A DNA stretch of 35,744 nucleotides from Acidobacteriota bacterium (GTDB taxonomy: Bacteria > Acidobacteriota > Terriglobia > Acidiferrales > UBA7541), in the NCBI GenBank assembly GCA_003223295.1, contig QHYM01000119.1, positions 1 to 35,744 of the forward strand. The letters are read 5' to 3'. The position numbers and the translations under genes were made by a program. The notes beneath the pieces were generated by a model. That model searched no databases and was not told the DNA's origin. It saw only the letters and a program-made list of their open reading frames with translations. Below are positions 21,445-35,744 of this stretch, piece after piece (within the stretch, counting starts at the first letter, position 1; each line of letters opens with the position of its first letter).

Positions 21445-22866
21445 TCATTGAGCTGGCGCAGGCTTCCAGGTGGTGCCGCCGTCCATGGTCTCGAAGATTT
21501 TCGTATTGCCGGAATTCCAAACGATGGCATGGAGCGCATCCGTGGCGCGAACGCCGCCCAAATCTTCGTCGAGTGGAGAATGGAGGATGGCCCAATGCGA
21601 GCCGGCATCAATGGTGAGAAGAATGGTTCCGGCGCGGCCAACGATCCAGCAGACTTTGTCGGAAGGAGCCGAACCGGAGGTCAGGTCAACGAGTACATTG
21701 CTGGTTTGTCGCGTCCAAGAGGTGCCGCCATCCCTGGAGAATTCGATCATGCCGGCGCGGCCCGCGCGCCACAGGACTCTTTTGTTTGGAACTGCAATCA
21801 AATTTAATTTGGAGTCGCCCACGAGTAAACTAGGAGAAGCGCTCATATCGCCAAAGGCCGCGGCTGGAGTTGGGGCGGGAGCGGGAACTGCCGGCTTAGC
21901 TGCAGCAGCGGCGCGATAGGCAAGTGCGGGTGATTCCGATTTCGCTTTCTTCTGAGCTTGTTGCGCCTGCTGTGCCTGGTCAAGGGGGCTTGGGCCAGGG
22001 AGCTTCTGGGCATTCGACGGGTTTTGCTGATTCTGCACCTGGGCAGTAGCAATTTGCGGCTGCACTTCCACAGTTTCCGCCATGGCCCCTGCGCCAGCTT
22101 TAGCGTCCTGGGCCGGTTGGTTTTTGATGCGATTGGCGGCAAGCGCGGAGTCCCGCCCAGCGTCCTGGCGCGCGCCAGCCTCCTTGTCTGCGGAGGGGTT
22201 GACTAAGGTGGCTCTGGCGCGCGAGTCAGATTTTTCGAGCTGGTGCAAATTTTCAGGCCTTGTCCGTTTCCCAGCGTCTTCGTCCTTGGACAGCCTGGCA
22301 AGCTGATCCGTTCTTAACTGATCCGATGATGGAGACGCAGCGGCCTGCTGGGTTGTTGGGGGCTCTTGCGCAGAAGGTGGCTCCGCTTTTGCCATTTTCA
22401 CCTCGACAGGAGCCTTAACTTGCGGCGGCTGACTTTCGTGCCAGGCGACCCACACAAGCAGACCGGCCGCAAGAGCTCCCGCGGGAGCGAGCCATTTCCA
22501 ACGCGCGCCAGGGGAGATCTTTACGACACGAGATTTTTGCGGAACCTTTGCGGGCGGCGCGCTTCGGTCTTCAGACGCAACAGTCGCAGGCTTGGCAGCT
22601 TCCTCCAACGACGCTGCTTCTCTCTCAGAAACCTGGAGCGGAATGGAATCCGTAGCCGCGAGCTCGGAAAGAATGGCCTGGCAGCGCACGCAGCCAACGA
22701 TGTGTTCCTTCCACGAATTCATTTCTTCCGGGAGCAGCGAGCGATCGTGGTAGGCGGCGAGCACGTCGGACTCCGGGCAATGAAGATGTCCGGCGCGGAC
22801 ACGCAAATCGTTGACGAGAAACCCGCCCAATACGGCGTCAAACTTTTTGTCTTCTTCAGCAGCCAT
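21445..22866 (-). CDS. Zinc-finger anti-sigma factor with a C-terminal Asp-box propeller fragment
   Basis: Residues 28-70 form an anti-sigma zinc finger, with His55, Cys59 and Cys62 in HIVGCVRC and a possible fourth ligand at Cys30. A single membrane helix lies at about 124-142 (WLAPAGALAAGLLVWVAW), then a long disordered Ala/Gln/Pro linker to about 340. Residues 343-473 hold three Asp-box repeats (SRDGGTSW 377-384, TIDAGSHW 418-425, TMDGGTTW 460-467) of the Ycf48/BNR type. The order is cytoplasmic finger, one helix, and periplasmic propeller. It follows its sigma gene by 57 nt. By family logic, the finger sequesters the sigma factor and the periplasmic part senses a signal. Confidence 0.88.
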   Translation of the reverse strand: MAAEEDKKFDAVLGGFLVNDLRVRAGHLHCPESDVLAAYHDRSLLPEEMNSWKEHIVGCVRCQAILSELAATDSIPLQVSEREAASLEEAAKPATVASEDRSAPPAKVPQKSRVVKISPGARWKWLAPAGALAAGLLVWVAWHESQPPQVKAPVEVKMAKAEPPSAQEPPTTQQAAASPSSDQLRTDQLARLSKDEDAGKRTRPENLHQLEKSDSRARATLVNPSADKEAGARQDAGRDSALAANRIKNQPAQDAKAGAGAMAETVEVQPQIATAQVQNQQNPSNAQKLPGPSPLDQAQQAQQAQKKAKSESPALAYRAAAAAKPAVPAPAPTPAAAFGDMSASPSLLVGDSKLNLIAVPNKRVLWRAGRAGMIEFSRDGGTSWTRQTSNVLVDLTSGSAPSDKVCWIVGRAGTILLTIDAGSHWAILHSPLDEDLGGVRATDALHAIVWNSGNTKIFETMDGGTTWKPAPAQ

Positions 22867-22923: not shown

Positions 22924-23919
22924 TCAGCCATCCGTCGGGGGCGATTTGGAAGCGCCGGGGCGCGGCGGAATAGCGTCGAGCAGGTGCGAAAAGTCGAATG
23001 GCCAGGCTTGCGTCGCATATTCAAAACAAAGCCGAATCTGGGCATCATCGAGGCCGGGCTGTGAAGCCTGGCCATTCTCGGTGGCGCGGCCGGACTTGAG
23101 AATGGCGACGACTTTTTCTTTCAATTCCTGGCGGACGCGTTCGAGCTTGCGCGACACGGTGGCTTCATGCTCGTTCATGGCTTTACCAATTTCCGCCAAA
23201 GTAAGGTCCTTCAGGTAGTAGGAAATGAGCCGCGTGCGATCGAGCAGATTCAAGGAAGAGATGGCTTGCTTGAGCGCATCGGCCAATAAATGAAGGTAGC
23301 GCGAGCGGTTCGGATCCGCCGGTTCCCAGTCCACCTTTTGTTCTGCAGGGAGAATCTTCTCGAAGCCTTCGTCATCCTGCAAACCTTCCAACCGTTTTTC
23401 CTGGCGCAGAACGTCGATGTAGCGCTGAGCGAGAACGGCGCGAAGCCAGGTGGAAAGTTTGCTGCGGCCGTGGAAATGATTGAAGAGCGACACGCGGCCG
23501 ATGGTAGTTTCCCTGCCGTAGAGCGTGGCGTACAAGGAGTCCGCGAATTCGCGCGCATAGGGATCGCTCGACGAGCGCCTGGTGATGGCAGCGGCAGCGG
23601 AGTAAAGATACTGGCGATAGCTGGCGAAGAAATGCTCCCACGCGGACTCGCATCCCGCGGCACACGCGGCGGCCAAAGCTAGATCTTCCACATGAAGCCC
23701 AGCGAGGTAATCCTCAATTTTTTGCCGCGCCGCCGATTCTCCGGCAAAACGCTTCGTGGCGCTACGTTCGAGCGAAAGAGAAAACCTTTCCAGCGTGAGT
23801 CCCCAGCGGGCCGCTTGCGACTGGGCGTAAAGTTGCTCAACGAGAGAGGCGCGGCCATCCAACAGCAGGGAAAGACCCGAGGAGGACTGGGTTGTTCGCT
23901 TTGGCGTGTCCTTTGCCAT
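22924..23919 (-). CDS. ECF-like sigma-70 family RNA polymerase sigma factor
   Basis: The product has about 331 residues, long for an ECF factor, because of an N-terminal extension of about 90 residues that I cannot assign. The region 2 pattern is FNHFHGRSKLSTWLRAVLAQRYIDVLRQEKRLEG and the region 4 helix-turn-helix is LTLAEIGKAMNEHEATVSRKLERVRQELKE. A basic C-terminal tail follows. I prefer the ATG at 23919 (AGGA about 10 nt upstream); an ATG at 23967 in the same frame is possible. It is the first gene of the sigma/anti-sigma unit and lies divergent from the TonB gene, with the structured element between them. Confidence 0.88.
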   Translation of the reverse strand: MAKDTPKRTTQSSSGLSLLLDGRASLVEQLYAQSQAARWGLTLERFSLSLERSATKRFAGESAARQKIEDYLAGLHVEDLALAAACAAGCESAWEHFFASYRQYLYSAAAAITRRSSSDPYAREFADSLYATLYGRETTIGRVSLFNHFHGRSKLSTWLRAVLAQRYIDVLRQEKRLEGLQDDEGFEKILPAEQKVDWEPADPNRSRYLHLLADALKQAISSLNLLDRTRLISYYLKDLTLAEIGKAMNEHEATVSRKLERVRQELKEKVVAILKSGRATENGQASQPGLDDAQIRLCFEYATQAWPFDFSHLLDAIPPRPGASKSPPTDG

Positions 23920-23967
23920 TAGGGTCAATCCTGGACTATCAACCAACGGCTGGGGATTCCCTTGCAT

Positions 23968-24296
23968 CTTAGAGCATAAGCCCTATGGACGGGAAATTGG
24001 TGAGCAAAACACAAACAATGAGAATGGAATTGGAGTATCCTAGGGCTATGTTGCGGTACCGGCCCCGCAACGGAGACCGCCTCGCCGGGGTTAGAAAAGG
24101 TGTCTTGTAGTGCGCTCACGGGAGCATTAGCGACTTCGCGTCGTTGGTACCAAAGTCCTATTCGGACGTCCGCAGCCTCGTAAGTACTCTTGGTACTGGC
24201 AAGAGCGCACTTTCAAAACTTGCCGGCGAACTTGGGATCGCTAGGTATCCCTAGAAATCCCTGTTCCCTGGACGGAATTTCACGAGGCGGCCGCGG
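23968..24296. other. Divergent intergenic region rich in inverted repeats
   Basis: The roughly 330 nt between the sigma-factor gene (-) and the tonB-like gene (+) contain no credible gene and no consensus sigma-70 promoter. They hold at least three structured blocks, described separately, and three GGTAC cores (24055, 24146, 24192). Confidence 0.6.
24050..24261 (+). ncRNA. Candidate structured RNA leader of the tonB-M48 operon
   Basis: Hairpin A: GTTGCGG (24050-24056) with CCGCAAC (24065-24071). Junction: AGTGCGCTC (24109-24117) with GAGCGCACT (24203-24211) closes a fold holding a small hairpin CGAC/GTCG (24131-24143) and an 11-bp stem (24143-24153 with 24190-24200). That stem includes three G-U pairs and encloses GTCC/GGAC (24155-24167). 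Hairpin C: GGGAT (24234-24238) with ATCCC (24257-24261) around CTAGG/CCTAG (24241-24254); an alternative ATCCC at 24247-24251 competes. The G-U pairs become A-C mismatches if read on the minus strand, so a plus-strand RNA is favoured. It matches no riboswitch class I recognise and ends 35 nt before the tonB start. Confidence 0.45.
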
Positions 24297-25469
24297 ATGA
24301 CAACCATGATCGTAAATCCACCACGCAGGACGACGATGGGCGTCGGCTTTCAGTCCAACCGTGGGCGTGCAGGCGATCCGGCAGCTTGGAAAAAGGCCAT
24401 CGGTACCAGGCCCGTGGCAGCGCGTCTCGCCTTACTTCCTGAACCAAAGCGGCGCTGGAGCCGCATCGGCGTAAGCGCGATGGGGCAAGTGGCCCTCATC
24501 AGTTTTCTACTGATTCTCCCGCTCATCTTCCCGGAACAAATGAAGACGGCCCTAAACCTTAGGCCCACGGAACTCATGCAACCGGTCACGCTAGTTCCTG
24601 TCGCTCCGGAACCGCCTCCACCTCCTCCCGTCAAGCCCAAGGCATTGCCGAAACCGAAGCCAGTAGAGCCGGAACCGGTGAAGCTGAATCCGAAACAGAC
24701 GCATGTGTTCTTGACGGCCAAAGCGGTCCAGCCCGAAATGAAGAAGGTGGATGTAAAGCCGGTGGAATTGAACCCGCAATTTGATCAGGTCAAGCTGGAT
24801 GTCGACACCAAAGCGCCGAAGCGCCCGAAGGACGACGTGAAAGTTGGCGTCATGCCGTCAACGGGCAGTGCAGCGACGGCAACGGTCGTGGCTCCTGTGA
24901 ACAAAGTGCAAACGGGTGGCTTCGGCGATCCCAATGGCATACCGGGTAAGGGTGATCCGAATCATGCAACGAACGTAAATCGCCTGGGCTCCCCCGCGCT
25001 GCCGGGCGGTCCCGGCTATGGCAACGGAACCGGGGGCGATAAAGGAATTCGCGGTACGGTGGCGAGCACGGGCTTCGGCAACGGCATCGCGACTCCTCCA
25101 CCGAGCACCAAGAAGGGCACCGTACAGTCCGGCGGCTTCGCGGACCAGACAGTAGCCGCTGAAGCGCCGAAGAAGAGAGCGGCGAACAGCGAAAGCCCCA
25201 CGACGCCTGTGAACATCCTGGAAAAGCCGCGTCCGGAGTATACGGCGGAGGGGCGCAGTCTGAAGATCGAAGGTGACGTTGTTCTGGACATGGTATTCCT
25301 GGCAAACGGGAGCGTTCAGGTAAACCGGGTCATCAGCGGTTTGGGTCACGGGCTCGACGATGCCGCCATGCATGCGGCGCAGCAAATCAAGTTCAAGCCG
25401 GCAAAGCGCGATGGTCAACCAGTGGATTTTCCGGCGCGCGTGCGAATTGAATTCCGCTTGGCTTACTGA
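24297..25469 (+). CDS. TonB-family energy transducer
   Basis: The 390-residue protein has a cytoplasmic N-terminus, one membrane helix at about 60-78 (VSAMGQVALISFLLILPLIF), a Pro-rich spacer (about 100-128, PEPPPPPPVKPKALPKPKP) and a long, Gly-rich linker. A TonB-C domain follows at about 305-390 (KPRPEYTAEGRSLKIEGDVVLDMVF, then QIKFKPAKRDGQPVDFPARVRIEF). TonB transmits proton-motive force from ExbBD to outer-membrane receptors. No exbB/exbD is adjacent. A GAGG lies 9 nt before the ATG. An M48 protease gene follows by 11 nt with its own strong ribosome site, so the pair is an operon. A structured leader precedes it. Confidence 0.9.
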   Translation: MTTMIVNPPRRTTMGVGFQSNRGRAGDPAAWKKAIGTRPVAARLALLPEPKRRWSRIGVSAMGQVALISFLLILPLIFPEQMKTALNLRPTELMQPVTLVPVAPEPPPPPPVKPKALPKPKPVEPEPVKLNPKQTHVFLTAKAVQPEMKKVDVKPVELNPQFDQVKLDVDTKAPKRPKDDVKVGVMPSTGSAATATVVAPVNKVQTGGFGDPNGIPGKGDPNHATNVNRLGSPALPGGPGYGNGTGGDKGIRGTVASTGFGNGIATPPPSTKKGTVQSGGFADQTVAAEAPKKRAANSESPTTPVNILEKPRPEYTAEGRSLKIEGDVVLDMVFLANGSVQVNRVISGLGHGLDDAAMHAAQQIKFKPAKRDGQPVDFPARVRIEFRLAY

Positions 25470-25480
25470 GGAGAAAGAAA

Positions 25481-27196
25481 ATGCGTAGAGTGGCAGCAGT
25501 TGTTTGTGGCGTGGTGCTAAGCGGGTTGGGGACGATCGCCGCGGCGACGCCCAGGTCGGCGGAGCAGGCGCGGACGATGTCGGATGTGATCGACCGGGTC
25601 ATCACCAACGAAAACCGGTCCATCCAGCAGATCCGGCAGTACTCGCCGCTGGTCGAGACGTACATCCAGAACCAGAAGCCGGACAAAGAGCTAGGTTGGG
25701 TGGCTGCCGGTGACAAATATTTTCTCGGCCGCGCCGACTTCTCCAGGGGCGTTGCCCTCGTTTCCCTAACGGACACCAATAGCAAGGGGAAAAAGCTCTT
25801 TGGCGCCATCGGCAACTTCTTCTCGTTTTCAGCGGAGTTCGTGCCCGGCGGATTCCTGCAGATGATCTTCATCGACACTAACGGCTTCGACAAACAGCAC
25901 TACAAGTTTGATTACGTGCGGCGCGAGTTTCTCGGTGAAGTGCGCTGCCTCGTGTTCGATGTCTCGCCGGTGGAAAAATCCGGCAAAGGCCGGTTCCTGG
26001 GCCGCATCTGGGTGGAAGATCAGGACTACAACATCGTGCGGTTTAACGGCGGGTACGGCGGCAGCGGGCATTCCAGCTGGTACTTCCACTTCGATAGCTG
26101 GCGCACCAACGTGCAGCCAGGCGTCTGGCTGCCATCGTTTGTTTACAGCCAGGAAAGTGATGTGCACTACGCTATATCGAAGCACTTGGATTTCAGAGCG
26201 CAAACGCGACTCTGGGGTTACAACCTCGGCCATGCCAATCAGGAGCAGGAGCTAAGCAAGATCCTGGTCGAGACTCCCGTGCAGGACGACACCAAGACAG
26301 CCAATGACCTTACTCCCATTCAGGCGCAGCGCTCCTGGGACCGCCAGGCGGAAGATAACGTCATCGATCGCTTTGAGCGCATCGGCTTGGTCGCACCGCG
26401 CGGCGAAGTCGACAAAGTGCTTGAAACGGTGGTCAACAACCTCGAAGTCACCAACAATATTGACGTCGATCCCGAAGTGCGTTGCCGCGTTTTGACGACT
26501 TCGACCTTGGAATCCTTCACTATCGGCCACACCATTGTGCTGAGCCGCGGCCTGGTAGACGTCCTGCCGGATGAGGCCAGCCTGGCAACCATATTGGCCC
26601 ATGAACTGGGGCATGTGGTCCTGGGCCACCGCATGGATCCTGCCTTTGGATTCTTCGATAATCTGCTGATAGACGATAAGGAAACGTTCCGTCACTTCGG
26701 ATTTGCGCGGACGCTGGAAGAGGAAAAGGCGGCGAGTGTCAAGGCGCTGGAGATACTTGACAAGATTTCGTGCAAGGCGTCAGGAAACCAGGGCGCACAG
26801 TGCTACCAATATGGCAACGCGGGGCTGTTCCTCACGGCGCTAGAAGCGCGTCAAAAAGAGATTCCGAACCTGATCAGCGGGCACCTGGGGAATCGCGTCC
26901 CGGTGATTACTGACCTGAAATCGGGCGCACCGACGGACGCAAAGCAGAACGCGCAAATGATTGTGGCGCTTCCGATAGGCGGGCGCGTCAAGCTGGATCC
27001 CTGGAACGACAGGCTGGACCTCATCAAGAGCAAGCCCGTGGGAACAGTAGCGGAACGCGAGAAGATGCCATTCGAAGTCACGCCGTTCATGCCTTACTTG
27101 ATGCGCTTCACTACCGAGCCTGCAAAACCCATTGCCGCAAGCACGACGACGCAGCCGGATCCGAAAGCGAGCGAGGCCCAGCCCGGTAAACCGTAA
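25481..27196 (+). CDS. Secreted M48-family zinc metalloprotease
   Basis: The 571-residue protein has a signal peptide (1-22, cleaved after AAA). An unassigned N-terminal domain follows (about 30-270, beta-rich, with LGRADFSRGVALVSL and IWVEDQDYNIVRFNGGYGG), then an M48 domain with HELGH at 374-378 followed by VVLGH. The expected ExxxD third-ligand motif reads EEKAA here (Glu414, Ala418 in place of Asp), so the metal site may be weakened. The ribosome site GAGGAGAAAG is strong. M48 periplasmic proteases such as BepA/LoiP act in outer-membrane protein quality control. Coupling to TonB fits envelope maintenance, as an inference. A perfect 11-bp hairpin follows. Confidence 0.9.
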   Translation: MRRVAAVVCGVVLSGLGTIAAATPRSAEQARTMSDVIDRVITNENRSIQQIRQYSPLVETYIQNQKPDKELGWVAAGDKYFLGRADFSRGVALVSLTDTNSKGKKLFGAIGNFFSFSAEFVPGGFLQMIFIDTNGFDKQHYKFDYVRREFLGEVRCLVFDVSPVEKSGKGRFLGRIWVEDQDYNIVRFNGGYGGSGHSSWYFHFDSWRTNVQPGVWLPSFVYSQESDVHYAISKHLDFRAQTRLWGYNLGHANQEQELSKILVETPVQDDTKTANDLTPIQAQRSWDRQAEDNVIDRFERIGLVAPRGEVDKVLETVVNNLEVTNNIDVDPEVRCRVLTTSTLESFTIGHTIVLSRGLVDVLPDEASLATILAHELGHVVLGHRMDPAFGFFDNLLIDDKETFRHFGFARTLEEEKAASVKALEILDKISCKASGNQGAQCYQYGNAGLFLTALEARQKEIPNLISGHLGNRVPVITDLKSGAPTDAKQNAQMIVALPIGGRVKLDPWNDRLDLIKSKPVGTVAEREKMPFEVTPFMPYLMRFTTEPAKPIAASTTTQPDPKASEAQPGKP

Positions 27197-35323: not shown

Positions 35324-35440
<117 letters not shown>

Positions 35441-35462
35441 AACTTGTGACTCGCAAACAGCT

Positions 35463-35589
35463 TCCCACCCCTAGGGGCAAGGAATCGCGAGTGGGACAAC
35501 AGAAATTGGCTGGCATTACAAGCTCGACTCGTATCGAGCAAACTGCAGAAGCAAGACTCTGCTTCTCCTCTCTCAAAGACGGTTTGAGA
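35463..35589 (-). other. 23S-5S spacer with four perfect hairpins
   Basis: The spacer contains TCCCAC/GTGGGA (35463-35496, with CCCCTAGGGG inside), GCTCGA/TCGAGC (35522-35539), AGAAGCA/TGCTTCT (35547-35566) and TCTCAAA/TTTGAGA (35571-35589). They are likely processing stems. No tRNA is present. Confidence 0.6.
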
Positions 35590-35597
35590 AAGTTTTA

Positions 35598-35744
35598 TGA
35601 TTAAGCCGAACGGGCGATTAGTACGGGTCAGCTCAACACATTGCTGTGCTTACACCTCCCGCCTATCAAAGTCGTAGTCTTCGACTGCCCTTCTTATCCC
35701 GCCGAAGCGGGATTGGGAGACCTTATCTTAGGGCGAGCTTCATG
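35598..35744 (-). rRNA. rrl: 23S ribosomal RNA, 3' end (partial)
   Basis: On the minus strand the sequence contains GTGTTGAGCTGACCCGTACT, then AATCGCCCGTTCGGCTTAAT, which is the conserved 3' terminus of bacterial 23S rRNA. The gene runs out of the window at 35744. The 3' end is placed near 35598 by analogy and may vary by a few bases. Confidence 0.95.

Follow-up and report, generated by a model that had tools for sequence, protein, structure and literature searches.

The tonB locus and the spread of its upstream region

The region studied lies in a window of 35,744 nucleotides, the whole stretch of DNA that was analysed, between a divergent sigma-factor-like gene on the minus strand (22924–23967; 347 aa; Pfam Sigma70_r4_2, E 5.9e-6) and tonB on the plus strand (24297–25469; 390 aa; Pfam TonB_C, E 7.2e-15). 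The next gene on the plus strand encodes an M48-family peptidase (25481–27196; Pfam Peptidase_M48, E 1.5e-7), which is found 3' of tonB in relatives too and probably shares an operon with it. An initial annotation of this DNA had proposed an anti-sigma gene at 21445–22866 on the minus strand. No anti-sigma domain was found in its product (Pfam, E 0.001), which gave a sub-cutoff match to PSII_BNR/YCF48 (25.0 versus 27.0 bits). The 5S rRNA and the 3' end of the 23S rRNA lie at the window edge (35324–35744, minus strand). Beside the divergent sigma gene there is a conserved block, TTGCATC(C/T)TAGAGCATAAGCCC, at 23964–23986, whose ATC(C/T)TAG resembles TATCCTAG at 24036–24043; by this resemblance, the two might be sites of one factor.

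The sigma gene adjoins tonB in 21/21 leader-bearing relatives with upstream flank available, and the order sigma gene, leader, tonB, M48 is identical in those loci. Six longer loci were checked in other genera: tonB and M48 are adjacent in all of them (6/6), and none has a match to the sigma gene. Six paralogous tonB loci (L027, L029, L033–L035, L037) have neither the sigma gene nor M48 within the stretch examined, and the window's leader found no match at them. Degenerate-looking tandem repeats lie ahead of the paralogous tonB in L033 (GACCGAATCTCGGACCAA), L034, L035 and L037.

The window's genome holds one full copy of the region, the nine other matches being of 17–34 nt with E > 1. With only one full copy in the genome, and the whole element not scattered, a mobile repeat was rejected. 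The expectation that the region belongs to no known riboswitch family was also borne out, as no Rfam covariance model matched it at the gathering threshold; over the whole window, the 5S and 23S rRNA models alone matched, both elsewhere. Relaxing the threshold to E up to 10 over 23900–24400 gave three sub-threshold matches (best E 0.51), and a search of eight related loci at E up to 1 gave none.

From the core we built a covariance model (R1); scanned against 95 genomes of the order, it matched 35, comprising 31 of the 36 genomes of the window's genus and four from two other genera. Each matching genome had one match, bar one with a marginal, coding-like second (E 0.046). Among 250 genomes of the class, the 26 with an R1 match were all from the same family. 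A strict pattern search of 396 phylum genomes, a sample without another genome of the order, returned the window's genome alone. The region is thus a conserved, single-copy element that is syntenic with tonB across relatives. Strong as this conservation is, where it is highest the sequence resembles a switch at the DNA level, a promoter with a protein-binding site also found at other genes, more than a new sensor made of RNA, for the reasons set out below.

Conserved core, dyad and -10-like hexamer

Conservation was calculated as the mean pairwise identity per 10-base bin over 15 leaders, each less than 80% identical to the others; the fourfold sites of tonB, in 13 of the 15 representatives, have an identity of 0.40. 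Identity is 0.75–0.95 over 24122–24161, including the region's most conserved stretch (24142–24161, 0.85–0.95), is lower in the more variable spacer at 24162–24181 (0.53–0.62) and reaches 0.72 over 24182–24191. Outside this core the values are 0.75 over 24082–24091 and 0.69 over both 24062–24071 and 24282–24291, the last of these spanning the tonB Shine–Dalgarno (SD) region CGAGGCGG (24283–24290). The core sequence, and not the long stem described below, appears from these identities to be under the strongest constraint. The two peaks, the variable spacer between them and the 0.40 fourfold baseline make up a promoter-like profile, and so support what we regard, with modest confidence, as the best reading of the core (∼24122–24196), that it is a regulated promoter of the tonB–M48 operon. 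The conservation at 24062–24091, together with the co-variation of the long-stem arms, is unexplained by a promoter core and counts against this reading.

All elements of the core are given on the plus strand. Element A (24146–24159), picked out by conservation and recurrence, is an imperfect dyad, RGTAC-N4-GTNC (here GGTACCAAAGTCCT), and is proposed as a transcription-factor operator. Its right flank, CCTATTC (24157–24163), is conserved in the alignments and would overlap a -35 region at offset 15–17 from A (TTC here, often TTG elsewhere). At the non-tonB sites described below, offset 17 is G or C in 21/26 and G, giving TTG, in 15/26; at tonB it is C. Element B, TACTCT (24185–24190), is a -10-like hexamer singled out by identity and by its spacing, at offset 39 from A. 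The same geometry is seen at other copies of tonB, with TACTCT at offset 38 in genus g223 and TACAAT at offset 40 in g212. Upstream of A, TTAGCGACTTCGCGT (24128–24142, identity 0.75–0.83) forms the left part of the inner stem and, from its sequence, is a possible second protein site. A by-eye comparison suggests that in g221 its counterpart, TTRTCGCTTTCARCACGAC, is displaced away from A by roughly one turn of the helix. Several observations are counted against the promoter reading: within the genus, the copies of A at tonB depart from the best form of the dyad (GTCC for GTAC, TTC for TTG), the window's TACTCT matches TATAAT at 3/6 positions, and a generic promoter scan of the window gave nothing at the site.

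Element A is found upstream of tonB in other genera and also upstream of other genes. From the order we took the upstream sequence of another 36 tonB relatives and scored 33 of them. Element A (at least 12 of the 14 specified bases) was present in 24/33, and B lay 34–36 nt from A in 21 of those 24 loci. The loci bearing A come from g212, g214, g219, g221, g222 and the window's own genus (L146, from a genome missed by R1). Element A was absent from the loci examined in g213 (two), g216 (two) and g220 (three), and from L150 of g222; L147, one of the nine loci without A, offered 36 bases of upstream sequence only, too little to judge. No core was seen ahead of tonB in L179–L181. A sequence-only model (R2) built from g212, g219 and g221, without rows from the window's genus, found 3/5 of the g222/g223 loci given to it (E 4e-5 to 2e-4) and 2/8 of the loci of the window's genus (E 0.003 and 0.007). 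It missed the other six of these eight as well as L148 and L163, and in a genome scan it matched no genome of the window's genus.

The dyad in the form RGTAC-N4-GTNCTATT was found ahead of unrelated genes. Searching 12 genomes, some of them picked owing to earlier matches, for GGTACNNNCGTACTATT with at most one mismatch gave 33 places (31 non-tonB, two tonB sites), against seven for reversed-pattern controls; the control implies that roughly one in five of these places arose by chance. Three of the places were without retrieved sequence. Combining A with TANTA 14–20 bases downstream gave 27 places in 24 of the 95 genomes, against none for controls; 23 of these precede tonB or a tonB-like frame and four do not. 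The initial annotation had named, as a finding that would speak against it, the same sequence scattered at unrelated loci as a mobile repeat. The conserved core does recur at unrelated loci, but not as a mobile repeat.

We then have 26 distinct non-tonB places at which the spacing can be compared. At offsets 36–40 from A, their best match to TATAAT averages 3.38/6, against 2.38 (sd 0.13) in the reference, and TANNNT is present at 11 of the 26, against a mean of 1.1. Near-duplicate genes (L249, L260, L075), tonB sites (L251, L269), L072, and L244, L213 and L214, which were found with B in the query, were excluded from this comparison. For the 21 places found independently of B, obtained by further dropping L253, L256, L261, L266 and L268 (first found by B-using searches; L219 is the same site as L268 and L245 the same as L253), the best match is 3.33 against 2.35 (sd 0.15), with TANNNT at six of the 21 against 0.7 (reference maximum 3). 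To recur ahead of unrelated genes and keep a -10-like hexamer at a fixed distance is the behaviour of a promoter. Within the window's genus, TANNNT is seen at 1/8 sites, with a best match of 3.12 against 2.41 (sd 0.22), and at 0/7 of the B-independent sites, where the best match of 3.00 against 2.40 equals the reference maximum. A stricter pattern was found in 2/16 same-genus genomes, the window's not among them, and in no controls. The -10 signal is thus carried by the other genera; for the window's genus it is not established.

Of 23 downstream frames listed, 20 proteins were scanned with Pfam; nine had matches and 11 had none. The matches are PAS (two), PilZ with a response-regulator domain, a histidine kinase, a DnaA-type ATPase, an N-methylation pilin motif, a subtilase, an S55-like peptidase and an outer-membrane barrel with CarboxypepD_reg. 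Two of the dyad matches, L075 and L214, precede similar membrane signalling genes. In L271, ahead of the subtilase gene, and in L249, a perfect dyad TTGGTAC-N4-GTACCAA lies 45 bp upstream of A (start to start) and, from its form, could be a further operator bound by the protein that binds A.

Inverted repeats and pairing in the leader

The initial annotation had described the region as a structured RNA leader. Most of the stems it listed are indeed present in the sequence (all plus strand): a 7-bp hairpin, 24050–24056/24065–24071 (GTTGCGG-N8-CCGCAAC); a 9-bp long stem, AGTGCGCTC (24109–24117) with GAGCGCACT (24203–24211), spanning 103 nt end to end; and a two-tier hairpin at 24234–24261 (GGGAT/CTAGG...CCTAG/ATCCC), in which two ATCCC copies compete for a single GGGAT. 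The inner stem has the three G-U pairs described, but folding gives it nine contiguous pairs, not 11. Bin identities are 0.35 and 0.53 for the 5' arm of the long stem, 0.48 for its 3' arm and 0.38–0.56 for the two-tier hairpin. In the alignment, judged by eye, CGCAAC, from the right arm of the 24050–24071 dyad, is kept in L054 and L063 despite loss of the left arm, which suggests constraint on the sequence rather than on pairing.

Folding of 24040–24300 was mildly better than that of shuffled sequences on the plus strand (z -1.52; 15/200 shuffles fold equally well) and better still on the minus strand (z -3.57; 0/200). Over 15 divergent relatives, the mean whole-leader z was -1.88 for the plus and -1.83 for the minus strand. 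Inverted repeats therefore exceed chance, without strand preference. In one calculation, run with these both-strand values, the inner-stem pair probabilities were 0. The pair probability of the long stem depends on the assumed ends of the RNA, being ∼0.86 for 24050–24296 and 0.34 for 24040–24300.

The main rival to the promoter reading, which we consider unlikely overall, is that the region acts as an RNA leader. Transcription would start near 24050 from a -10-like TATCCT (24036–24041); a candidate anti-SD, CCGCCTCG (24077–24084), would pair with the SD region at 24283–24290 and close a domain enclosing the long stem and the two-tier hairpin; and a ligand, protein or temperature would shift the fold, freeing the tonB ribosome site. 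The predicted fold of the window RNA 24050–24296 is indeed a domain with the SD paired, with anti-SD:SD probabilities of 0.81–1.0 per pair and the long stem formed. Across 31 leaders (L048, the same place as the window, was left out), at least four anti-SD:SD pairs are expected in 19/31, the window included, and at least four pairs between the long-stem arms in 18/31. The conservation at 24062–24071 and 24082–24091 is likewise in keeping with a longer leader.

Pairing was also assessed by own-versus-swapped duplex tests. The long stem gave p = 0.0005 with the 31 leaders and 0.02 with the 15 under 80% identity, and the effect was weaker on the minus strand (0.06 and 0.24), although of the six shifted controls, one that overlaps the true arm likewise reached p = 0.006 and 0.03. 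For the two-tier hairpin the values were 0.03 (31 leaders) and 0.05 (15). For anti-SD:SD, p was 0.03 on the SD-variant leaders (m = 10), where L044, L067 and L069 rank first; the remaining seven of the ten variants do not rank first, and p was 0.08 with all 31 leaders and 0.15 with the 15 divergent ones. Pair counts exceed those of shuffles in an alignment that was fitted to the structure and includes one antisense row (L058 minus), a row removed for the pair-type counts that follow. A covariation check had been suggested for the long stem. Its arms do co-vary in the own-versus-swapped test, which is weak support for the stem, but the all-pairs test against a tree null, which has low power, found no significant pair among the 31 leaders (best E 1.2, not a base pair).

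The initial annotation had also argued for plus-strand RNA from the G-U pairs. In the inner stem alone, G-U pairs do exceed A-C, 23 against three. The long stem shows the opposite balance, 34 A-C mismatches to 27 G-U pairs, and since the folding excess is equal on the two strands, the argument fails there; taken as a whole, folding and pair types do not favour the transcribed strand. A second exact TGCGCT, the motif of the 5' arm, lies 9–10 bp upstream in 4/31 leaders, and such repetition might fit protein half-sites. The recurrence of the core at unrelated genes also weighs against an RNA leader, and the suggestion that the leader senses a metal or cofactor found no support. The RNA leader nevertheless stays in contention for the longer part of the region, which is specific to the genus.

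Two further readings combine promoter and leader. In one, which we think improbable, an older promoter common to the family has acquired around it a regulatory RNA specific to this genus; the anti-SD would close the RNA domain over the ribosome site, and the GTAC dyads would have a double role, acting in DNA as operators of one promoter and forming hairpins in the RNA made from the other, so that one sequence would serve transcription factor and RNA switch alike. Less probable still are tandem promoters. The A/B promoter would then give the shorter mRNA, and a second promoter upstream, which the divergent sigma factor may read, a longer one whose leader would be translationally controlled in this genus only. 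Consistent with tandem promoters, among the loci checked the sigma gene accompanies the long leader and is absent from the six longer other-genus loci, while A occurs in several genera. Against them, no clear -35 was seen for the putative upstream start.

The promoter reading and known systems

Under the promoter reading of the core, a dimeric DNA-binding protein would recognise RGTAC-N4-GTNC, centred ∼43 bp before the predicted start, and would act with RNA polymerase at the adjacent -35-like TTC and -10-like TACTCT. Transcription would begin near 24196, giving a 5' untranslated region of ∼100 nt that holds the two-tier hairpin and the SD site. What look like RNA stems in the core would then be half-sites of operators. 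Among them, the GTAC...GTAC hairpin at ∼24184–24197 looks like a further copy of the dyad that would overlap the -10 and +1; its centre is 4 bp in most relatives and 5 bp in the window. We infer that the geometry of the other genera holds in the window's genus, that the protein activates rather than represses, and what kind of protein it is.

If this promoter reading is true, it supplies a testable operator consensus, RGTAC-N4-GTNCTATT with a -10 at offset 36–40, and points to a regulon that may join tonB with signalling and surface genes in uncultured Acidobacteriota from soil. Among the literature matches listed, we recognised no published description of such an operator or regulon. The case also illustrates that operator dyads can mimic RNA hairpins if a single sequence is read alone. 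Should the RNA leader be correct instead, the region would be a new translational switch for tonB.

As in riboswitches and leaders that sequester the SD, the region has a possible anti-SD pairing, several helices and a 5' region of ∼250 nt. Unlike them, it has no Rfam match and no significant all-pairs covariation, and its core is common to unrelated genes. Like the candidate structured RNAs that comparative genomics has yielded, as described in an excerpt of PMC2864571, this region has conserved intergenic inverted repeats before one gene family; it differs from those candidates in having no strand preference and a core common to other loci.

In its dyad form, element A is nearly the same 14-bp pseudo-palindrome as the published cyanobacterial LexA (SOS) box, given as RGTACNNNDGTWCB in an excerpt of PMC3091678. 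Set against that excerpted system, the lexA loci here are without the dyad, the carriers include signalling and surface genes, and a -10-like hexamer follows at a fixed distance downstream. An A-type box was found ahead of lexA in 0/5 loci, four of them clear (L182–L185) and a fifth weaker (L186), a result that does not support membership of a LexA regulon. Because these loci are without the dyad, the resemblance is not borne out, and we regard a LexA box as highly improbable. In L182–L185, from four genomes of the family, a conserved TTGAC(T/G)TTCGC-N6-TTCGCCTA repeat lies directly before lexA; this TTCGC-N6-TTCGCC repeat, which differs from the dyad, could be the LexA box of the group.

Class II activator promoters carry a CRP/FNR-type site near -41.5, and NtcA binds GTA-N8-TAC. 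The half-site GGTAC mismatches the CRP, FNR, DNR and NtcA consensus sequences, and the centre of the dyad would lie nearer -43 to -44. The 5-4-5 layout of element A near -43 may be akin to that of CRP/FNR-type class II sites. As at class II promoters, a dyad with a 4-bp centre is found just upstream of the putative -35 region, with the -10-like hexamer at a fixed distance.
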